Source: a virus
Reading direction: 5' to 3' (one strand)
IMG/VR virus record: IMGVR_UViG_3300025120_000436
Span: 1-27,239 of that record
DNA length: 27,239 bases
Part shown: positions 6,845 to 26,198 of the stretch, piece by piece
How the letters are laid out: each line of letters starts with the position of its first letter
Numbering within the stretch: position 1 is the first letter of the stretch
Made by a program: the position numbers and the translations under genes
Notes under the pieces: model-generated
Database searches by the model: none
What the model saw: only the letters and a program-made list of their open reading frames with translations
Told to the model about the DNA's origin: nothing

Positions 6845-9800
6845 TTAAGCTTCTATAATTCCCTTAGAAATTAAATCATTTACTATTACAGAGGCACTAT
6901 TAATTAAATATTCTGTTGGGTAGTCTGGGTATAAAATACCTGGAGTTGTTGCTAACTCAATACTACTAAACGACCCTGTATATTGATGTCCTGATCCCGT
7001 TCTACCAATTGATGAACCTGATTGGGCAAATTGTGTATCAGATCCACTTAATAATCCTTGTGAAATACTTGCACTTGCTAATGCACTATAAGGGAATGGA
7101 GCATCTAAATACAGTGAATTAGGATTAGTAATCGGTCTTCTTACTAAGAAGAAATCTTTATTCACACTAAGTGGAATGCTTCCATCTACTCTAATTTTTA
7201 ATCTTGCTTGACCACTTGCATATGTTGTACTTTTTTCAATATTTTCTTGTGGTGCAAATACTTCTTTAACAACATACGTAAAGTTTTCGTTATTTCCAAA
7301 TCGTATTTCATCTCCTTCTTGTATTTCAAGAGGTAAGTTTATTTGCTCAAAATTAGTTCCAGCAGGTTCTACACCACCTGGAAAATAGTCTGATGGGCCT
7401 GGTACATATTCTATGTAACCTTGTTTAAATCCTGTTCCATAAGCCTCATTCATATTTGAAGAAGACATTACTAATATACTTTGTGAAACGCTGTTGTTTT
7501 CAGAAGTATAATTTCCAGCTGAGCCAGTATATACCCAGAATGGGGCTTGAGCTTTATTAGCATTTTCTAATAACCAATCAGATGCTCCTTGACCCTGTAA
7601 TTTTACAGACGTCATTGCACCTTCATAAGTTGTTGGAAAGAAGTATCCTTGTTGATATTTACTACTATTAACCGATTTAAAAACTCCTTTTAATCTCCAT
7701 CTAATTTTATCATTAACTTTAATTGTATAATTACCAGTATTAGCTTTTATAATCCATTCTATTCCTGTTATATTTTGCGAACTTTTTAAATTAGCTGTTC
7801 TTGTTATACCAAGATTAAATAATGTTTTTCTCATTTCCCAATCAATAGACCATTGAAGCCCGTTTTGTTGGTTTTTTGCTCTAGTACCTGATCTATTATA
7901 AGTCCATCTGGGTTGGTTGGTTTTAAAGAAATTTTTATCATAATTCTTCTTTTTCCCACTTCCCCATTCATAATCAAACCAGCCATATTCATCTATATTT
8001 TTTATTAAATAAACTTGTCCTGTGTCCGTATAAACTTTAGCATCAAGGCTTTCTAAATTAAAATTAATAGAAGTATCTATACCACTACCAGTGTAAAGGT
8101 ATAAATTATATGTTAATTCATCTCTTGTTCCTTGTCTTTCACTAACATAAGTAGTAACAACAGATGTTTCTAAACTAACTATTTGTTGATTAGATAAATC
8201 ATCACCATGTGTCCCCCAATCTCCACCGTTAGCAGTTGAAGCATAAAATGCACTTCCTGTAAGTGGATTACCATTACTTCCTGAATAAGTTGATGGGGTA
8301 GAACCACTACCATATGAAACAGTAGTTGGATTTAACCAATAATCAACTTCTTGTAATACTCCTGTTGAATCAATACTTGCAGGTCCTGCTGCCATAAATT
8401 GTCCAAATACAGTACCAAGTTCATCATCATTATCATATCTTGAAATATAACCTGATCCTGATAAAGGTATTAAATTAGTATAATTATTTGAAGAATTTTG
8501 AGAGTACATAACAGGTGAAACAAATTGCATTAACCTTGAAATTACTGAGGGCGCCCCTAAAGATTGATATGATTGTTTACCGCTTTGTATTGCTACTTTA
8601 CCCATTGAAGTTAATGGGAATACAGAATTAAAAGTGTCTATACTTAATTGGTTTAATGAAGGAGGTAAAGCATTACCTTGTTCATCAATTAAATAATTTA
8701 AATTAACTCTTGTTACTCCATTTATATTTGGATATGGATCATCTAGATCATTAAAATATCCAAAAAATGCATCCCTTAATTCTATTGTTGGTAGTTTACC
8801 AAATGTACCTGTATCTCCTATATTCCATTGATTTAGGTATTTACTTGTTGATTTAGCACCTAGATATCTAGGTAAAATCGAAGCTTTTTGAGTATAATTA
8901 GAATCTGGGACTGCTGCTTTTGTAGCTGTCTGATCAAGGATCTGTGTTTGATTTACAGGTATAATAGGTCCTGATTCATTATTATAGTCAACATTCATTA
9001 TATATGAATTTTGTCTTTGTGCATTATAATTATTAATTAAAGGTTGACAACCATCAGCTAAACTAAATGGTAACACACCACCCCCATAAAAAGTTGGTAT
9101 TACAAAGTTTGTTAGTGTTGGAACATCAAAATTATTTAATGCCGAGGGTGTTGATAAAGGAGCCCAAATAGATTGGCTTGGGCTAAATGACATAGTTACT
9201 TCGCTTACAACAAAACCTGAACCTACATTGGCCGCTGCTCTACCTATTGCAAATCTAAAGGTATCATTTGGTAAAAAATTACCACCATAAGAACCGGATA
9301 CTGTTACTCTTGTCGCCGCAGTTTCAGAAGGTAGGAAAAAAGGCATATTTAAAACTACATCTCCTGCAGGTGTAAGAATATTTTGATCAAAATTTCCATT
9401 TGTTACTATATCAGATACATTAGATTTAAGTATTCTTACTGATCCCGTAACATTAAAATCTTGGCCTGCATTTAGGTTAGAACTTTGTGTTATTATTATT
9501 GCTGCATCATTATTATTTTCTATAAATTCAACCTCAAAAGCAGTTTGTTCTACTCCCCCAACAATACCTGGTTTGTAATTACTCATTGAATATTCAATAA
9601 AGTACATTTCATCTGCATGGTTAATAGTTGAACTTGTATCAGATGTAGTTATTGCGGTATTGTTAATATCTAATACAGGTGATTCAGCAAATGGCATTAC
9701 TATCCCTGCATAAATAGAACCTGAATATCCCCCTAGAGGTCTTGTAGCTTCATCATATACAGAAGAGGTTATTATTCTTTCTCCAAAAGATCCTGTTAGT

Positions 9801-12800
9801 TTTAAATAAGCATCTACTTGTATTTGGCTATATTTATCTCCTGAAGGTACTGTAGAAGCTGTAAATTGTTGTAAATTATCTGAAGCTCCTTGATATCCAA
9901 AAGTTGCTGTTGAAAATGGTGTAAAAAAGTTATAAGTTTGGAAATTAGCAGTATTAGAACCATAATAAACCATTTCAACACTTGTTTGAAACTCAGGTAT
10001 ATAATATTTAAAGTTATTAGGTGATTCTATTCTTAAAAAGAAACAATCCCGTGTATCAGTAAAAGGAGAAATTGAACTTGTAAAGAAAGGTAATCCCTGA
10101 AGACTTAAACTTGCTTGACCATTTGATGCCATTACTTCTGTACTAGGGAATTTATAAGGACCAATTGTAGCCCCATTAACATCATGTTGTTCTCTCCAAA
10201 TAGAAGCTGTAAAGTTTTCTCCAGCAACTTGTGAATTTACTTCGTAACTTGAGTTTAGGTAAAAATATACTATATCACTTATAGTTTGTGTTGTCTCTGC
10301 CGCAACCCAATTAGCTGCTTGATTCCAATTTATTTCGAAACCTCCATTTTTTGATATACCATCAGAACCACTATAAGTAAACGCACTACCAAACCCACCT
10401 AGAGTACCAACAAAGTTATCATTAAAATTTAATGAAGCTTTAGCAGCACTACCAGATAAAGGTCTGCTTTCAACAACATCTGGATCTAAAGCAGGTGCAG
10501 GGCCTTGTAAAGATAAAGTTGGGAAAAGCCAATCCATTGAAGCGGTACCACCAGTTCTTATTTTAGGATGACCACCTTCTGAACCGGAAATAAGTACATC
10601 TCCTCCGGGTATATCATCATTATACTCGGTAAAGAAAATATCTGTTGATGTTAAACCTATATTTAGGGGTGAGGGTTGAAATACTGTAGACCCAGGAACT
10701 ACCTCTTCTGTAAATCCTGCTAGTGCGGTTTTAGCTCCAGAACCTAATGTATTCCAATTTACATTAGTAACAGTATTTCCTGATAGTAATAGTTGCTGTT
10801 TAAAAGTAAAAAATGAACCATCTCCATTTGCAGCTTTAAAAAATTTATTTCCTGTAATATCAGATGGTATAGTAAGATTAGTGTTTGTGTATATTATTGT
10901 ACCATTATTTATTTGTGCATTATTATTACCACCATTATCAAAATAAACTATTGTATCAAAAACTGTTTCAGTTGGAGTTGTAGCATTAAATGCTAGTGTT
11001 TGTGTATTAAATCCAGCTCCAGAATTTGTATTTAAATAAAAACCAGAAGCTTGATTAGTACCACCTACACCAATTCCAAAATTTTGAGATTGTAAACCAG
11101 GGCCTGAATAACTTGAACCTGAGTGATATATTCCATAAGCTATCGTATTTATAGCACATGATGGGCAATATGAAGAACTATACACTAAACTTGCTGAGAA
11201 AAAGAATGGTACATTAGGTGTATATGTTGGGGAATAACTTGCATTATAAAAATATTCTGACCCACTACTTAATATTATAGATGGAAATATATCTGCAGAA
11301 CCAGTATTAAAAAAACCTAATGGATCAACTTTAGCAATATCATTGGCTGAACTATTAAATACACTAATTATTTGTTGTTGTCCTGTGGTAGTATAATTTG
11401 TAAGTCTATTTAGCTGTAAAAGATCACTTGACTGTGATACAGCAGGACCAGTTTTTTTAGTTGTACCCCCTTGCATAGACCAATTCATTGACCCACCATC
11501 TTGAGAACTTGTTATTGGATAATAAGCTGAGGAACCTATTTCTTGGAAAATATTATTTCCTAATTCTTGAGAAACATTACAAACAACATGATTAGAATAA
11601 ACTGTTCTACCAGTTACAATATATTTTGCTGCTAATGAATCATAAGGTAAAGCTGCATCAGAAAATATTATTCTTAGATCTGTAAAATCATCTAAATAAC
11701 CTACAACTTCAGTTCCGTTTGCATCAAAATCACTAAATTTAATGGCAACGACTTGTTGTATACCAGATTGTGGGTTATCTGTTTGTTGAGAACTAATCCA
11801 AACATACCCAGCTGGTGGGACATTTGAACTATCAAAAAATGCATCTCGTGTAATAGTTGATTGTAAATTAGGAGTAAATGTAAAAAATAATGGGAAAAAT
11901 TGTACAGGGGTATCACTTTGATTTAAATAAATTTCACAACCAGGATTTAGGTCTTGGTCTGCTACTTGAATGTTTGATCCACTAAATATACCATTATAAA
12001 ATTCTGATTGATCAGAATGTATTGGATTATTAAATCCTTTAAATGACCCACTAATCCATTGTGAACTACTTTGATTAAAATATGTTGCATTTAATATAGA
12101 GTTATCGAATGATTCACTCCAACTTTGTGTTAAAAAGAATCTATTATCAGGTGATTGGATAGTATGAGTTACTAAATCAATACTTCTTAGGGTTAATACT
12201 AATTCACCTGTTCCACTACCTTCTAAAGTACTACCTAATATTGTTATAGTATCACCCACTTTTACTGGGAAATCGGCATCCGCAGATGCAATTGAAACAG
12301 CAATACTTCCTAAAGCCCCACCTGAATTTGTACCAATTAATGAACTAATTTGAACTTCTAATTCACCATAAAAACCATTATAAGTAGCAGCAAAAAAATC
12401 AAAATCATCACCACCACCAGGCAAATCTAAAGTATTTGTTGTAATAACTCCTGGAATTGAGTTGAAATTGTAAGAACCACTAACTCTAAGTATATTTAAA
12501 TTATAGGTTGATAAACCATTAAATCTATTAAATGAACCTCCTGGACCACCTGTAAATTTATAAATTGCTGAACCGGAGGAAGCATATTGAGGTTGATCAA
12601 AAGAACCAGTATTATAATCTTTTGGGGCAGGTTTTATTGAACCTGAATATTGTTCAAAAGAAGATGTTACTTGAGCTGGTCTTTGTCTGTTTCTTTCTAA
12701 TAAATGTTGTTTAATTATAACACCTGATGCTAAACTTGTTCTTGCTGGTATATAATCTTTGATCATTTTAAATAATGAATTATCAAAGAATTTAATCAAT

Positions 12801-15800
12801 CTAATAAAGTCAGTTACATCATATCCACTTATATATTTTTCAAAATAAGCATCTCTTAAAATATCTAAATTAGGATAGGTATAAGATGATGATGAAATTT
12901 GTCTTGGATCTCCTATATAATCCCCTAAATTAAAATACCCAATTTGAGCATTAATATCATCGTTTATTTGATTAGAAGGTGAAAAACCAACTTCTAAATA
13001 ATTAACATTAGGAGTATAACTTTGACTTTGAAAGGATATAGTTTCTATAGATCTTAATCCTGATAAAGTAGTATTATCTGAATTAGCTATTGTAGTATTT
13101 GAAGATGTTGGGGTTTGAAAACCATATGGTTGCTCAGCTATAAGATGTTTTTCAATTTGTATTTTATTTGTTATTCTATTTTTTATACCCGCGGGTACTT
13201 GGTCTTGGAATGTATTTTCTACATTTACTTTAAATGTTGGATCTTCAATTTTAAAATCACTATTTCCATCTTTAAAAGAAGCTGTTATTTGAACAGCTGA
13301 ACCTGTTATTCTTGGATGTATTGATGTTCTACTCGCTGTATTTATTTGAGTACCTAAATCAGCTCTAAACGCTAATTGATTAGGTGTACTATTAACACCA
13401 TTTCCTTCATTTGAAAATGGATTTACTGTATAGTCATGAAAATTACTTTCTGATATTTGTTGGTTCCAAAATCTATATTCTTGAAAAGAACCAGAAAATG
13501 GTTGATAAGTCTGTCCTGAATGTATAAGATTTGAGGAGGTATTTAAAAATGCCCTTACAGATCTATTCCAATCTCGTGTATCATGATTAAGTACGGTATC
13601 TGACCCTGTCCATCCAATTTTACCATTTATTTGATTTGCTACAAATAAAGAACTTGTTACACCATTTGAAGTAGTATCATAAGCTGCAGAAGCTGTTGCA
13701 AAATTTATTTGTGCAGACCACCAATCTCCATTAAAAAATGGAAGATAAATACTTGCGGATACTGCAGGTTGTTGTTGTGATGAAGGAATCCATTTTAATG
13801 TTCCATAATTATCATAAGCATTTGGAACAGACCCCGAATAGGAACCACTTGTAAACCCAGAACCGGTGTATTCTAATACTAATAAAGAACCAGTAATATC
13901 ACTTTCTTTTTTACTTACCCAAAGAGATTGAGAATATCTTATATCTGAGGATGCAGTATTAGCTGAAGCAGTTGGTATAGTAGCTGGTTTAAATCTTAAT
14001 TGGAGAGAATGAATATTACCATTTCCTCCTACTGTCCCGCCACCAAAATCAGTACTAAGATTAAAAGATGAAGTTAAACAAGAATTTCCATCAGGTCTTG
14101 TATCCATCATATAATTAAAAACGTCCTGTTTTAAATCATAATCTTGTGATTCATTTCTATCTTTACTACCAAATTCACTAACCCTTAATATTGTATCTGG
14201 GATACCATAAGAAGTTATTAATGCTCTTATAGTTGCTACAGTACCTTTAGTTTTAAGTAAATAAGGTATATTATGGTAGATACGTTTATATATTTGCTTT
14301 TGAGTATTGTTTAATGGTACTATGTCATTTGAAGCTGATATTTGAGTAGTTATGTACTCATACCCAACTGTTGTGCTAGATCCCGATATACTACCCGTTA
14401 TATTTGTAACTGGGAATGTACTTCCTGAAGGTGTTAATCCTAAAAAAGCTGTAAATAAATCGTCTGTATTAAAGTTATTTGAATATAATTTTAAACCAAA
14501 ATCTCTTATAGCATCATCTACTAAATCTTTTGAAATACCATAATCTAATCTATTATCAGCATTAAATTTATTAGCAATGTCTTTCGTATAAACCCAAACA
14601 TTATCATAATATTGACCTACCATATCAACAAATAATTCATAACCCGCGTTTTCAGGATCATTTCTTAAATATTCAGGTATAGCATTAAGTAAATAATCGC
14701 GATTATTGTCATCATAGTCTGATGCGGATATTATCTGGCCCCCGAAAAAGGCTGATGATGGATCTGTACTACCTAACCATGTTTTTACTGTTGCACTACC
14801 TGAGTTTGCTAGTATATAAGGAGGGGTATTTGTTAATTTTGGATAAGAATATAAAGAACCACTATTAAAATATAAAAAATACTCATAACCATCAAAGTTT
14901 TTAATTATATCATCAATTTGACCTGTTAAATTAGCTTGACTTGAACTATACGCCGTTGTATTAACTGTGTCACTAGTTTGATCCACTGTTTCAAGAAAAC
15001 TTGTAATTTGATTACTACAAGATTGTATTAAACCAACTTTATATGTAAAATTTTCTAATCGAGCCTTTGCAGAAGAAAAATTAACAAAATTACTATAATT
15101 TTCGTAATCAATATTAATGTTAATGTCTTTTTCATTTAATAAACTTTTTATTTGTGCAATTGAACTTGTTACATTACTTTTTAATAAATTTGCAAATGAA
15201 AATGAGGGACCAGAAGTTGAAGTTTCTTGTCTTACTTCTAAACTATAATTAGGTCCTTGTAAATAAGTAAAATCATCATCTATTTCCTGAGTTGAAGGAA
15301 ATACAACATTGTATGCTTGAGGTTCTGATAGAACTTCTCCTACCCATAGTTCAGTTTTTACATCAATATTTCCAGGAAGGGGCTCATATAATTTTATTAA
15401 AATAGTTGGATCTTCTGTTTCATCTTGTTCTAATTTTATATTATTGGCTATAATTGTTTGATTCTTGCCAAAATTTAAATAAAAATCTACAAAATAAGTA
15501 GCATCATCTCTATATTGTATGAAATCTTCAGCAGAAGCAATCATATCACCATTTGAAATAATGTCACTGTCTAAACGTATTTCTTTTCTATCTGAAGATA
15601 TTTCTGAAATATAATATTGATTAAAACTATCAGATGATAATCTTCTTCTATAGAAATTATAAACTATGTTAAAAGTTCCAATATCAAAACCTAAATCTGA
15701 TAAATTTGATGATGGATCTAGTAATATATTTCCTTTTCTAATTACATAATCTCTTAATTGAATTGTGTTTTTTGGATATATAAAATCTCCATTATTATCA

Positions 15801-15952
15801 TAGATATAAAATTCTATATAATCACTATCTTCTGAAAAGGATGTATCCAGGTTTGATGATGCTAATAAATTTTCATCAGCAGGGCTATAGTTTTGTTTTT
15901 CAAAACTAACAGCATCAACAGGATTAATAATAATTTCTAATTCTTCTTCCAT
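6845..15952 (-). CDS. Giant baseplate wedge/tail-fibre fusion protein
   Basis: At 3035 residues this is the largest gene here. The N-terminal ~400 residues are mixed alpha/beta. Residues about 420-595 include LRNDPENAGYELF and PYLLKTKGTVATIRALI, which resemble the KGT-containing core of the P2 gpI / T4 gp7 wedge family. Residues about 640-870 look like a concanavalin/LamG beta sandwich. A helical block near 1034-1107 (SGYDVTDFIRLIKFFDNSLF) follows. About 1110-2350 is repetitive Ser/Thr/Gly/Asn-rich beta structure with SGS turns. A conserved-looking block (LPRYLGAKSTSKYLNQWNIG) lies near 2358-2380. The gene order gp25, gp6, two small genes, this gene parallels P2 W-J-I-H and supports a gp7/I-type wedge role. 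The uninterrupted frame shows no frameshift. The receptor-binding part, if any, cannot be localised. Confidence 0.75.
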   Translation of the reverse strand: MEEELEIIINPVDAVSFEKQNYSPADENLLASSNLDTSFSEDSDYIEFYIYDNNGDFIYPKNTIQLRDYVIRKGNILLDPSSNLSDLGFDIGTFNIVYNFYRRRLSSDSFNQYYISEISSDRKEIRLDSDIISNGDMIASAEDFIQYRDDATYFVDFYLNFGKNQTIIANNIKLEQDETEDPTILIKLYEPLPGNIDVKTELWVGEVLSEPQAYNVVFPSTQEIDDDFTYLQGPNYSLEVRQETSTSGPSFSFANLLKSNVTSSIAQIKSLLNEKDININIDYENYSNFVNFSSAKARLENFTYKVGLIQSCSNQITSFLETVDQTSDTVNTTAYSSSQANLTGQIDDIIKNFDGYEYFLYFNSGSLYSYPKLTNTPPYILANSGSATVKTWLGSTDPSSAFFGGQIISASDYDDNNRDYLLNAIPEYLRNDPENAGYELFVDMVGQYYDNVWVYTKDIANKFNADNRLDYGISKDLVDDAIRDFGLKLYSNNFNTDDLFTAFLGLTPSGSTFPVTNITGSISGSSTTVGYEYITTQISASNDIVPLNNTQKQIYKRIYHNIPYLLKTKGTVATIRALITSYGIPDTILRVSEFGSKDRNESQDYDLKQDVFNYMMDTRPDGNSCLTSSFNLSTDFGGGTVGGNGNIHSLQLRFKPATIPTASANTASSDIRYSQSLWVSKKESDITGSLLVLEYTGSGFTSGSYSGSVPNAYDNYGTLKWIPSSQQQPAVSASIYLPFFNGDWWSAQINFATASAAYDTTSNGVTSSLFVANQINGKIGWTGSDTVLNHDTRDWNRSVRAFLNTSSNLIHSGQTYQPFSGSFQEYRFWNQQISESNFHDYTVNPFSNEGNGVNSTPNQLAFRADLGTQINTASRTSIHPRITGSAVQITASFKDGNSDFKIEDPTFKVNVENTFQDQVPAGIKNRITNKIQIEKHLIAEQPYGFQTPTSSNTTIANSDNTTLSGLRSIETISFQSQSYTPNVNYLEVGFSPSNQINDDINAQIGYFNLGDYIGDPRQISSSSYTYPNLDILRDAYFEKYISGYDVTDFIRLIKFFDNSLFKMIKDYIPARTSLASGVIIKQHLLERNRQRPAQVTSSFEQYSGSIKPAPKDYNTGSFDQPQYASSGSAIYKFTGGPGGSFNRFNGLSTYNLNILRVSGSYNFNSIPGVITTNTLDLPGGGDDFDFFAATYNGFYGELEVQISSLIGTNSGGALGSIAVSIASADADFPVKVGDTITILGSTLEGSGTGELVLTLRSIDLVTHTIQSPDNRFFLTQSWSESFDNSILNATYFNQSSSQWISGSFKGFNNPIHSDQSEFYNGIFSGSNIQVADQDLNPGCEIYLNQSDTPVQFFPLFFTFTPNLQSTITRDAFFDSSNVPPAGYVWISSQQTDNPQSGIQQVVAIKFSDFDANGTEVVGYLDDFTDLRIIFSDAALPYDSLAAKYIVTGRTVYSNHVVCNVSQELGNNIFQEIGSSAYYPITSSQDGGSMNWSMQGGTTKKTGPAVSQSSDLLQLNRLTNYTTTGQQQIISVFNSSANDIAKVDPLGFFNTGSADIFPSIILSSGSEYFYNASYSPTYTPNVPFFFSASLVYSSSYCPSCAINTIAYGIYHSGSSYSGPGLQSQNFGIGVGGTNQASGFYLNTNSGAGFNTQTLAFNATTPTETVFDTIVYFDNGGNNNAQINNGTIIYTNTNLTIPSDITGNKFFKAANGDGSFFTFKQQLLLSGNTVTNVNWNTLGSGAKTALAGFTEEVVPGSTVFQPSPLNIGLTSTDIFFTEYNDDIPGGDVLISGSEGGHPKIRTGGTASMDWLFPTLSLQGPAPALDPDVVESRPLSGSAAKASLNFNDNFVGTLGGFGSAFTYSGSDGISKNGGFEINWNQAANWVAAETTQTISDIVYFYLNSSYEVNSQVAGENFTASIWREQHDVNGATIGPYKFPSTEVMASNGQASLSLQGLPFFTSSISPFTDTRDCFFLRIESPNNFKYYIPEFQTSVEMVYYGSNTANFQTYNFFTPFSTATFGYQGASDNLQQFTASTVPSGDKYSQIQVDAYLKLTGSFGERIITSSVYDEATRPLGGYSGSIYAGIVMPFAESPVLDINNTAITTSDTSSTINHADEMYFIEYSMSNYKPGIVGGVEQTAFEVEFIENNNDAAIIITQSSNLNAGQDFNVTGSVRILKSNVSDIVTNGNFDQNILTPAGDVVLNMPFFLPSETAATRVTVSGSYGGNFLPNDTFRFAIGRAAANVGSGFVVSEVTMSFSPSQSIWAPLSTPSALNNFDVPTLTNFVIPTFYGGGVLPFSLADGCQPLINNYNAQRQNSYIMNVDYNNESGPIIPVNQTQILDQTATKAAVPDSNYTQKASILPRYLGAKSTSKYLNQWNIGDTGTFGKLPTIELRDAFFGYFNDLDDPYPNINGVTRVNLNYLIDEQGNALPPSLNQLSIDTFNSVFPLTSMGKVAIQSGKQSYQSLGAPSVISRLMQFVSPVMYSQNSSNNYTNLIPLSGSGYISRYDNDDELGTVFGQFMAAGPASIDSTGVLQEVDYWLNPTTVSYGSGSTPSTYSGSNGNPLTGSAFYASTANGGDWGTHGDDLSNQQIVSLETSVVTTYVSERQGTRDELTYNLYLYTGSGIDTSINFNLESLDAKVYTDTGQVYLIKNIDEYGWFDYEWGSGKKKNYDKNFFKTNQPRWTYNRSGTRAKNQQNGLQWSIDWEMRKTLFNLGITRTANLKSSQNITGIEWIIKANTGNYTIKVNDKIRWRLKGVFKSVNSSKYQQGYFFPTTYEGAMTSVKLQGQGASDWLLENANKAQAPFWVYTGSAGNYTSENNSVSQSILVMSSSNMNEAYGTGFKQGYIEYVPGPSDYFPGGVEPAGTNFEQINLPLEIQEGDEIRFGNNENFTYVVKEVFAPQENIEKSTTYASGQARLKIRVDGSIPLSVNKDFFLVRRPITNPNSLYLDAPFPYSALASASISQGLLSGSDTQFAQSGSSIGRTGSGHQYTGSFSSIELATTPGILYPDYPTEYLINSASVIVNDLISKGIIEA
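13186..13197. repeat. GC-rich perfect palindrome
   Basis: TACCCGCGGGTA is a perfect 12-base palindrome inside the giant gene, encoding the Pro-Ala-Gly of VPAGI with codons (CCC GCG GGT) that are rare in this AT-rich region. Its core CCCGCGGG recurs at 22014-22021. Confidence 0.6.
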
Positions 15953-23774: not shown

Positions 23775-24488
23775 TTAGAATCTAGTATAACCATTTTCTA
23801 AAAAGAAAACATACTGAGATTTAAATATATCATGAAGTTTATCCGCTATTTTGGTAATTTTTGGAGTTTTAACATCAACCATTTCACGAATGTAAATATA
23901 AAGTGCTTTTTTATTAAAAACTTCTAAATCTTCTCTTTTACGAAATAATTCTAAAATTGCATCTGCTATTTGAGCATCATTTTTCTTTGGAAATAATTCA
24001 TAAATATTTTCTGATGTATAATTAACAAAAATATCAACGTATTTGTCTAAATCACTTTTAACTTTTTCCTCTCCTTGGCTGTAAGTATAAGTAGAAGTTG
24101 GTAATGTTAAAACTTCAACTCCTACTTTTTTAATTTTTTTATTATAATTTTTAGTATTATATAATATTAACCAACGTTTAACAATAGTACCAAAATAAGA
24201 ATATGCTTTTGCTCCCCTAGTTGGGTCAAATAAATGCATTTTAGATAATAAAAAGGTAATTATTTCATGTTGTAGATGTTCTAAATTTTCAACTTCAGTA
24301 TGATAAAATTTAAATGTATGAATTATATTTTGTGTAAGTTTAAAAAATGCAAAATGAATTTCGTGTTGGTATATATCACTACGTATTTTAGGATCTGGTT
24401 CGTTGTTATATTTTACTATAGCATTTTCCGTATCCTGAGTAAAGTAATTCTTAGACTTCTTCCGTCTTTTCCTAATAGGTGGTTGCAT
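23775..24488 (-). CDS. gp55: Late-transcription RNA polymerase sigma factor, T4 gp55-like
   Basis: The 237-residue protein has a basic N-terminus (RKRRKKSKNYF), then a sigma region-2-like helix bundle: EIITFLLSKMHLFDPTRGAKAYSYF followed by GTIVKRWLILY, cut here after the FDPTRG turn. The FDPTRG-x-AYSYF block is the conserved part of region 2 that binds the -10 element and the polymerase clamp. The C-terminal part is helical, with no recognisable region 4, consistent with gp55, which lacks one. gp55 directs late promoters that have a -10-like element only. It is the last gene of its cluster, immediately before the first late-type structural cluster. Confidence 0.82.
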   Translation of the reverse strand: MQPPIRKRRKKSKNYFTQDTENAIVKYNNEPDPKIRSDIYQHEIHFAFFKLTQNIIHTFKFYHTEVENLEHLQHEIITFLLSKMHLFDPTRGAKAYSYFGTIVKRWLILYNTKNYNKKIKKVGVEVLTLPTSTYTYSQGEEKVKSDLDKYVDIFVNYTSENIYELFPKKNDAQIADAILELFRKREDLEVFNKKALYIYIREMVDVKTPKITKIADKLHDIFKSQYVFFLENGYTRF

Positions 24489-24494
24489 ATAATG

Positions 24495-24764
24495 TTATTG
24501 GTTCTTTTTAAATTGAGATAATTGATATTGGATTTTTTGTATTTCTGTAAAAAACCAACCTATTTCATCATCTGACTTAAATGTTCCTTTTTCGTCTATT
24601 TGTTTAAGTCTTTTTTCGGAGAAGGAGATGTGCTCCTCTATTTTATCTATAAATTCTTGCTGGGAGACAATAATATCTTCTGCTTTTTCATTCTTGCGAA
24701 GAAGATTAAAAGTCGTAAACCCAAAGGTAACGACTAATATTCCTAATATAATTTCTATTATCAT
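24495..24764 (-). CDS. Small membrane-anchored coiled-coil protein
   Basis: An 89-residue protein with one N-terminal hydrophobic segment (residues 2-21, IIEIILGILVVTFGFTTFN), no signal-peptidase site, then a basic turn (RKNEK) and a charged helix. The end is a DDEIGWFFTEIQKIQYQLS helix. Topology would place the C-terminal coiled coil in the cytoplasm. It lies between HD gene (ATGA overlap) and sigma gene (6-base gap). I do not know its function; position beside gp55 is suggestive but it does not look like the co-activator gp33. Confidence 0.65.
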   Translation of the reverse strand: MIIEIILGILVVTFGFTTFNLLRKNEKAEDIIVSQQEFIDKIEEHISFSEKRLKQIDEKGTFKSDDEIGWFFTEIQKIQYQLSQFKKNQ

Positions 24765-25534
24765 AAACTGTCTAACATATTTTTTAACCCAGGACTTGAA
24801 ACTGTATTAAGTGCTTTAGATTTAGATGATTTTATGTTTCCCTTCAATGTATAATTTTTCTTTGGCTCGACCACGCTATTTTGGGAAAACTTTGGTAACC
24901 ATTCTACTTCAAATTCAATACGTGCCGCCATCATATCAGCTTGATGTAAAATAAATGGTAAGGATGTGCGAGGTTTTTGTTCTGGCATATACCCTTTTAA
25001 GTATTTTTCATTAGCTGTATCATATAAACCATCATGAGTTTGAATAGCTAACATTTCATTAAATGAATATGAAATATCATGTTGTTGTAATAAAAATAAA
25101 CCACGATCTGGTACGGCAGCAAATGCTAATTTCTTATTAAACATATAATCTTCACCTAGTTTATCTTTTCTCCACTGATCTGTTTGGGGTATATAGGCAT
25201 CATGATCTTTATCTCCCATTTTACCTAAATCATGGTTAATAGCAGAAAATACTAATTCTTCTTTAGTAAACGTAGTCATATCACACCCCATTTCTTCCCA
25301 CATATCATATAACCTAAGAGACCCTTCAACTACTTTATTTACATGAGCAACATATCCTCCTGGGAATGCTCCATGATATTCCTTTTTATGAGCAGCTGGC
25401 ATTAATATAATACGTTCTTCATAACGTTTATAAAAATTGGTTAAACATTCTCCTCTGTTACCTGGGATATGTACTGTAATATTATTTAAAAATATTTTCC
25501 AATTAGATTGAATTTGTTCTGCTGATAATTTCAT
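24761..25534 (-). CDS. HD-domain phosphohydrolase-like protein
   Basis: I choose the ATG at 25532-25534 (257 residues, MKLSAEQIQSNW), five bases after the upstream stop. A longer in-frame start at 25612 would add 26 basic residues and overlap the zinc protein by 73 bases, which is unlikely. The HD fold shows H64 (YVAHVNKVV), the HD pair H101-D102 (AINHDLGK) and a later HQADMMAARIE helix carrying the final aspartate. Such enzymes hydrolyse nucleotides, cyclic nucleotides or dNTPs; substrate unknown. Additional histidines (LQQHD, QTHDG) may complete a metal site. It is the third gene after a predicted host-type promoter. Confidence 0.78.
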   Translation of the reverse strand: MKLSAEQIQSNWKIFLNNITVHIPGNRGECLTNFYKRYEERIILMPAAHKKEYHGAFPGGYVAHVNKVVEGSLRLYDMWEEMGCDMTTFTKEELVFSAINHDLGKMGDKDHDAYIPQTDQWRKDKLGEDYMFNKKLAFAAVPDRGLFLLQQHDISYSFNEMLAIQTHDGLYDTANEKYLKGYMPEQKPRTSLPFILHQADMMAARIEFEVEWLPKFSQNSVVEPKKNYTLKGNIKSSKSKALNTVSSPGLKNMLDSL

Positions 25535-25539
25535 AACTT

Positions 25540-25854
25540 TTATTTTAAATTTTCTTTTAATTCTTCTTCCATTTCTTTTGGTATAAATGGTACCCATTTG
25601 TTTTTGGGGCAACCCGCTGCCATCGATCTAGTTTTTAAAGGTAATGAACAACCACAATCTGAGCAACATGGCTGCATACCGGGTAATGCGCAATGAGTGC
25701 CTACATTATCAAAATATTGACATTGTAAACATATACCATATCTAATTGAAGCTATTTCTTCAACCTCTTTATTAGTAAATACTCTATTTTTAATACCTTC
25801 ATATATTAAATCAAGGTTACCAAAGGCATTTATTAATTTATTAAATCGATTCAC
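25540..25854 (-). CDS. Eight-cysteine zinc-binding protein
   Basis: A 104-residue protein whose start codon is GTG (25852-25854); an ATG two bases earlier is out of frame and runs into a stop. Eight cysteines lie in about 45 residues: GICLQC, THC, PCCSDCGC and AGCPKNKW. They suit two Zn(Cys)4 sites, as in a double zinc ribbon. The rest is a short N-terminal helix and an acidic helical C-terminus. It could bind nucleic acid or a protein partner. It is six bases after the 66-residue gene and five bases before the HD gene. Function unknown. Confidence 0.65.
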   Translation of the reverse strand: MNRFNKLINAFGNLDLIYEGIKNRVFTNKEVEEIASIRYGICLQCQYFDNVGTHCALPGMQPCCSDCGCSLPLKTRSMAAGCPKNKWVPFIPKEMEEELKENLK

Positions 25855-25860
25855 ATTTAA

Positions 25861-26061
25861 TTATCTAATAGAATTTTGTTCATTTGCTGAAAATGGTTCT
25901 CTTTCAATCATACTTTTAATGTCTTCTGTAAGATTCTGAGCCTTTTCTACAGCTGATTTATAAGTTGATGCTGGTTCCTGGGTGTTTACTATTCTGTGTA
26001 AATTCATTAGTGTACTATCTAGTGCATCTAATTTTCTGTATAGTAAGTTTCTATTTCTCAT
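25861..26061 (-). CDS. Small helical hypothetical protein
   Basis: A 66-residue helical protein (RKLDALDSTLMNLHRIV, then AVEKAQNLTEDIKSMIE) with no hydrophobic segment. It heads the cluster that ends with the sigma factor. The ATG follows an AU-rich run (AATAATAATAAATAATAAAG) with no classical Shine-Dalgarno. No family recognised. Confidence 0.6.
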   Translation of the reverse strand: MRNRNLLYRKLDALDSTLMNLHRIVNTQEPASTYKSAVEKAQNLTEDIKSMIEREPFSANEQNSIR

Positions 26062-26094
26062 GTTTGTAAACTTTATTATTTATTATTATTAATT

Positions 26095-26147
26095 TTATCC
26101 CCCTTTTATTGCCTTTTATTACCCTTTATCTCTATCCCTTTTTTCCT
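26095..26147 (-). repeat. Purine-rich 10-base tandem repeat in the leader of the sigma cluster
   Basis: On the coding strand, three consecutive 10-base units read GATAAAGGGT, AATAAAAGGC, AATAAAAGGG (26101-26130), followed by a degenerate GGATAAAATT. The unit consensus is RATAAARGGN. It lies between the predicted promoter (26160-26191) and the ATG at 26061, so it would be in the 5' leader of the mRNA for the sigma cluster. Confidence 0.6.
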
Positions 26148-26159
26148 AAACCCGTGACA

Positions 26160-26191
26160 TAAATGTACGAGAGGGAAGTAGATATTCCAAA
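26160..26191 (-). promoter_or_regulatory. Predicted Bacteroidota-type promoter for the sigma-factor cluster
   Basis: TTTG (26188-26191), exactly 20 bases, then TACATTTA (26160-26167) on the coding strand. This is the largest intergenic gap (137 bases), and the spacing equals that at 3954-3985. The leader would be about 90 nt and contains the purine repeat. Confidence 0.6.
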
Positions 26192-26198
26192 TTATTTT

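Follow-up and report, generated by a model that had tools for sequence, protein, structure and literature searches.

Purine-rich 5' mRNA stabilizers have been described in Bacillus phage SP82 and in mycobacterial katG, as cited in PMC7509114 and PMC2358910. In these systems a purine-rich stretch lies near the 5' end of the mRNA, as it does in the phage leader analyzed here. However, those stabilizers are tied to ribosome binding via a Shine-Dalgarno (SD)-like sequence, whereas our leader shows no enrichment for anti-SD pairing, and in the host type the anti-SD is hidden. The unstructured translational operators of phage T4 (RegA sites and the gene 32 leader; PMC3014915) have in common with our locus a single-stranded, A-rich leader of a T4-like mRNA. 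Nevertheless, a RegA site overlaps the AUG or lies directly next to it (PMC3014915), whereas the units of our leader lie about 40 nt upstream of it and its G-runs fall outside the RegA consensus; similarly, the gene 32 operator carries a pseudoknot, whereas our leader has no conserved structure. In the T4 R-loop origins oriF and oriG (PMC3016281), a promoter is followed by transcribed A/G-rich and AT-rich DNA, as is predicted here; our leader differs from these origins in having no skew evidence and in its within-clade sequence conservation. Finally, both boxes of the Bacteroidota sigma-A promoters and their approximate spacing (PMC6847099, PMC9723704) are present at our locus, but the leader adds a conserved +1 to +9 segment and an A/G-rich ladder that are not seen at the other promoters of the same phages. 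We found no description of this leader element in the open-access texts consulted.

A putative late sigma operon and its promoter

The window (the whole stretch of DNA analyzed, a virus record of 27,239 bases) carries nearly all of its genes on the minus strand. The order of a 66-aa gene, a phosphohydrolase gene, an 89-aa gene, a 237-aa gene and baseplate genes is that of genes 150 to 159 of Flavobacterium phage immuto, and on this gene order the window is assigned to a T4-like phage of Bacteroidota type. The operon (minus strand throughout) opens with the 66-aa MRN... protein (25861..26061), similar to immuto gene 150, followed by a 104-aa Cys-rich protein (25540..25854) that has a weak match to phrog_13558 and is found in only a few close relatives. 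Next come an HD-type metal-dependent phosphohydrolase-like protein (24761..25534), which is well conserved in the operon, an 89-aa protein with an N-terminal hydrophobic segment (24495..24764), and a 237-aa divergent gp55-like (late sigma-like) protein (23775..24488). A 3035-aa open reading frame is also present among the baseplate and tail genes (window positions 6845-15952).

The first-pass annotation had described this operon as the one that makes the late sigma factor. Profile-profile comparison of the 237-aa protein with gp55 (hhalign) gave P = 0.0017 over the first 106 columns, at a reported probability of only 15%, and 14 of its 42 homologues weakly matched phrog_234 (late sigma). In addition, the top PDB fold matches of its structural model (pLDDT 75) are mostly sigma factors, none of them significant alone. 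Each piece is weak, but they converge, and membership of the gp55 family, with a sigma-2 fold, is a reasonable assignment for this divergent protein, although not a proven one; the late-sigma label is kept here on those terms.

In the relative L071, a gene for a phage ribosomal protein bS21 (L071:2886-3080) is located three genes upstream of the leader, in the order bS21, nuclease, 144-aa gene, leader. A bS21 gene lies at similar spacing to the leader in L014, L034, L036, L041, L059, L060, L067, L070 and L073, and likewise in L076, L077, L125, L134, L135, L137 and L150. Since bS21 governs anti-SD access in Bacteroidia, a link between bS21 and the leader is possibly of interest.

Both boxes of the Bacteroidota sigma-A promoter (consensus TTTG/TAnnTTTG; PMC6847099) are present upstream of the 66-aa gene. 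The -33 element TTTGG (26187..26191, minus strand; TTTG at 26191-26188) begins 8 nt past the stop codon of the upstream gene, and the -7 element TACATTTA (26160..26167, minus strand) follows the consensus TAnnTTTG. In an alignment of 60 leaders, the T, A and TT of the -7 box are invariant, whereas the -33 box is variable except for one G. In Flavobacterium psychrophilum, where the median 5' UTR is 24 nt, the -7 box spans -12 to -5 (PMC9723704); by the same placement, the predicted +1 would be the A at 26155 (minus strand), giving a leader of 94 nt. The promoter previously proposed ahead of the repeat is therefore of the Bacteroidota -33/-7 type and lies at the expected place, and the block downstream falls within the predicted transcribed leader. 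The promoter spacer in the leader alignment is G-poor (3% G, 30% C). A common phage promoter family, (A)TTTGGCTNCCC...TTTCGTATATTT, often with AAATAAAGGTTATG at the start, heads many other genes (L195, L197, L198, L199, L203, L214 and other loci), and the dataset yields a clear promoter family for T4-like phages of Bacteroidota.

Conservation, copy number and range of the leader

The leader consists of three segments, all on the minus strand: the initial transcribed sequence ACGGGTTTA (26147..26155; consensus ACRGGKTTT); a C-poor A/G ladder with G-runs (26099..26147), whose core in relatives is RAAYAAAGGYAA...GGGG; and, as drawn from the alignment, an AT-rich end before the ATG (26062..26098), which harbors a small hairpin or a CCC element in many relatives and neither in the window. 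To place this architecture among relatives, we gathered about 160 phosphohydrolase loci from viral contigs, and the leader pattern was found upstream in 127 of them, one or two being chance matches within genes; the loci with no pattern match include truncated ones and others whose variant leaders escape the pattern. Mean pairwise identity over 60 non-redundant relatives, which for these blocks depends on a gapped alignment through low-complexity sequence, was 0.83 for the -7 box, 0.81 for +1 to +9, 0.62 for the ladder and 0.52 for the AT-rich tail. As a yardstick for the ladder, 4-fold sites of the phosphohydrolase gene gave 0.52, and the identities expected from composition were 0.34 (ladder), 0.41 (tail) and 0.37 (4-fold sites). 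Conservation climbs at the predicted first transcribed base and spans about 60 nt, and promoter and leader are conserved together. It should be noted that the ladder core has pyrimidines at fixed positions, indicating that the ladder is not merely a purine tract.

A sequence model of promoter plus leader (R1) gave one full-length strong match per record in 33 of 33 long relatives (E 1e-15 to 1e-25); these records were picked for carrying the operon, so that the count speaks to copy number and not to prevalence. The remaining R1 matches have mainly the promoter in common and precede other genes, whose leaders are short. Exact matches to the core motif in viral contigs numbered 24, all from one kind of record: the phosphohydrolase gene lies directly downstream in all 22 newly fetched loci, and the remaining two (L041 and L044) are phosphohydrolase loci already collected. 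Bacterial and archaeal genome contigs, scanned likewise, had no match to the core motif. The leader is thus single-copy and always at the head of the phosphohydrolase/divergent gp55-like sigma operon. On the other hand, the immuto group and several other relatives have an ordinary AT-rich leader and no ladder, which argues that the ladder is not essential to the operon; by this distribution of sequences, the element is lineage-specific.

More distant relatives with a related phosphohydrolase have the same architecture in a different sequence, namely ACAG followed by a GA-rich, C-free ladder. In this GA clade the ladder is followed by a hairpin, GAYGUC-NCGN-GACGUC (L250, L253, L257, L269, L274, L275, L282, L283, L288, L290, L301 and L306), whose CUCCC arm could alternatively pair with the GGGAG runs of the ladder, a possible switch. 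In another locus, L081, a tRNA-like insert (about 2270-2350) with the T-loop GGGTTCGATTCCC and the acceptor-like ends CTATAG interrupts the leader, separating AAATAAAGG from the 3' hairpin; neither ARAGORN nor Rfam called this insert.

The ten-base repeat

The three consecutive ten-base units reported by the first-pass annotation are present exactly as described, on the minus strand at 26130-26101: GATAAAGGGT (26130-26121), AATAAAAGGC (26120-26111) and AATAAAAGGG (26110-26101), which include a window-specific extra ladder unit. The distance of about 40 bases to the ATG also agrees (39 nt, ATG at 26061), as does the near absence of C, with one C in the 64 nt from about +5 compared with 13.8% C over the minus strand as a whole. 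C-free, G-rich stretches occur elsewhere on the coding strand as well (about 11 clusters in a 119-kb relative), so that the evidence lies in conservation and not in composition alone. Tandem Repeats Finder described the repeat as period 10, 2.8 copies and score 42, and seven arrays in the 27-kb window, the reported one included, score 42 or more. Its lag 10 score was reached in none of 2000 mononucleotide shuffles of the window leader, and in 0.5% of such shuffles when any lag from 6 to 20 was allowed. The ten-base tandem is locally non-random, yet unexceptional for an AT-rich genome.

Comparison with relatives separated the repeat from the leader that contains it. The exact double unit AATAAAAGG-N-AATAAAAGG is found in the window and in no other collected locus; the closest relatives (L004, L005, L020 and L021) have GATAAAGGTTGATAAGAGGGGG in its place, L040 has a separate extra unit of its own, and the number of ladder units differs between relatives. 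Spacing of G-runs over 37 leaders showed no excess at lag 10 (z 0.5), the dominant gaps being 8-9, 5-6 and 14-16. Confinement of the exact repeat to the window, together with gain and loss of units among relatives, suggests that the ten-base period is incidental, and by this comparison the tandem is best described as a one-off duplication within a real, conserved A/G-rich leader. The proposal that the period places identical bases on one face of the DNA helix is consequently baseless. The repeat is thus absent from close relatives whose flanking genes are conserved, whereas the leader as a whole persists in them.

Possible roles of the leader

We propose that the sigma operon mRNA is controlled through this leader, a 5'-terminal element that a protein would read in single-stranded RNA form, and give this reading a probability of about 0.45. 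Transcription from the host-type Bacteroidota promoter would begin near 26155 and yield an mRNA carrying the phosphohydrolase/gp55-like operon; a phage or host protein that recognizes the single-stranded 5'-terminal ACRGG and A/G ladder would set the lifetime or the translation efficiency of the mRNA and, through this control, the timing at which the late-sigma-like protein accumulates. The tandem in the window would represent one extra ladder unit arising from duplication, with no role for the period itself. The computed features behind this proposal are the promoter, conservation from the predicted +1, an unstructured C-poor RNA, single copy and a fixed operon, from which we infer recognition by a protein and an effect on stability or translation. 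Conservation right at +1 could also mean a role in transcription initiation.

Regarding the unstructured RNA, RNAalifold over 60 leaders returned no consensus pairs, the leader had no match in Rfam, and the folding energy of the window leader is 0.0 kcal/mol, compared with -5.9 kcal/mol for random 55-mers. A structured regulator (riboswitch, hairpin or pseudoknot operator) was consequently rejected. In the subset of relatives bearing CCCTGT, a pairing of the 5' ACAGG with CCUGU (-2 kcal/mol) was suggested, but ACRGG is invariant even where CCUGU is absent, and this pairing was discarded as the reason for its conservation. A leader peptide was also set aside: as judged by eye, the sole ATG shortly before the predicted start begins a frame of four codons and lacks a counterpart in most relatives. 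As for the reader of the RNA, the first-pass annotation had suggested a RegA-like regulator, which is unlikely given that the units end 39 nt upstream of the ATG and that 19 records, many of them incomplete, yielded no RegA homologue in a search that recovered T4 RegA as positive control (E 2e-75) and that a very divergent RegA could escape. Hence, of the regulatory leader originally envisaged, a predicted transcribed, conserved and single-copy leader stands, helical phasing does not, and RegA is unlikely.

The same features were weighed against other roles. Given that identity peaks at the -7 box and at +1 to +9, and that the element sits at the head of a long one-strand operon, the initial sequence and the G-clustered non-template strand might act on RNA polymerase (escape, promoter-proximal pausing or loading of a phage antiterminator) for the long late operon. 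Such an element would tolerate the tRNA-like insert of L081 between ladder and gene, a split that an mRNA-bound element might not tolerate. We nonetheless regard this transcriptional role as rather unlikely: a search of the window leader and its surroundings gave no terminator, and the spacing of the element changes by whole units. To our knowledge, the known RNA antitermination sites are structured, unlike this leader. Alternatively, SD-like A/G runs could bind the 30S subunit and shield the end of the mRNA or raise initiation; the SP82 polypurine 5' stabilizer, as cited in PMC7509114, is a precedent. The bS21 gene three genes upstream in many relatives would fit such a ribosome-loading tract, as would the occurrence of TAAAGG beside the start codon in 6 of 140 phage genes, compared with 1.4 expected. 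However, the predicted pairing of the leader with AUCACCUCCUUUCU, which we take to be the Bacteroidota-type anti-SD tail, was less strong than that of composition-matched shuffles (mean z +0.41 mononucleotide, +0.97 dinucleotide), so that an SD array was rejected. Furthermore, Bacteroidia ribosomes sequester the anti-SD (PMC9976891), and we consider a role in ribosome loading or 5' stabilization clearly unlikely. AATAAAGG was likewise dismissed as a general start context, with ATAAAGG in only 6 of 140 genes, and these phages do not use the SD-like AAAGG as a general start signal.

An R-loop origin of replication of the T4 oriF type, in which a G-clustered RNA hybridizes to the template beside an AT-rich unwinding element, would match the published minimum of a promoter and an AT-rich downstream element (PMC3016281), the presence of one element per record, and a composition that is kept while the sequence drifts between clades. 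But this anatomy fits any promoter in an AT-rich genome, sequence and not composition alone is conserved within a clade (AAAYAAAGGYAA), and GC skew at 4-fold sites shows no switch at the leader in the 119-kb relative G008, all of which makes an origin improbable. At about 96 kb in G008, the coding-strand GC skew over the whole strand declines immediately beyond the leader, from about 0.2 to about 0.03, probably an effect of gene content or gene class, since no matching drop stands out at 4-fold sites. It is likewise improbable that the leader is an AT-rich, purine-biased spacer that drifts with chance tandem duplications and has no function beyond the promoter. The low Tandem Repeats Finder score, equalled or bettered by arrays elsewhere in the window, the restriction of the exact repeat to the window, the missing ladder of immuto-type phages and the similar composition elsewhere on the coding strand are all consistent with such a spacer, but the ladder and above all +1 to +9 have higher identity than the tail beside them and the 4-fold sites, and the element is tied in single copy to one operon.

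Returning to a 5'-terminal RNA element read by a protein, a bolder version would make the ladder an unstructured RNA timing signal of a new kind, whose repeated A/G units at the 5' end of the late-sigma mRNA are read by phage-remodelled ribosomes, given the bS21 genes of many relatives, or by a phage RNA-binding protein, switching late transcription on post-transcriptionally; we hold this to be very improbable. Late-gene timing in T4-like phages of Bacteroidota, whose hosts do not use Shine-Dalgarno pairing, appears to be little studied, and a conserved leader on a late-sigma-like operon offers a defined, deletable target for probing the late-gene switch.
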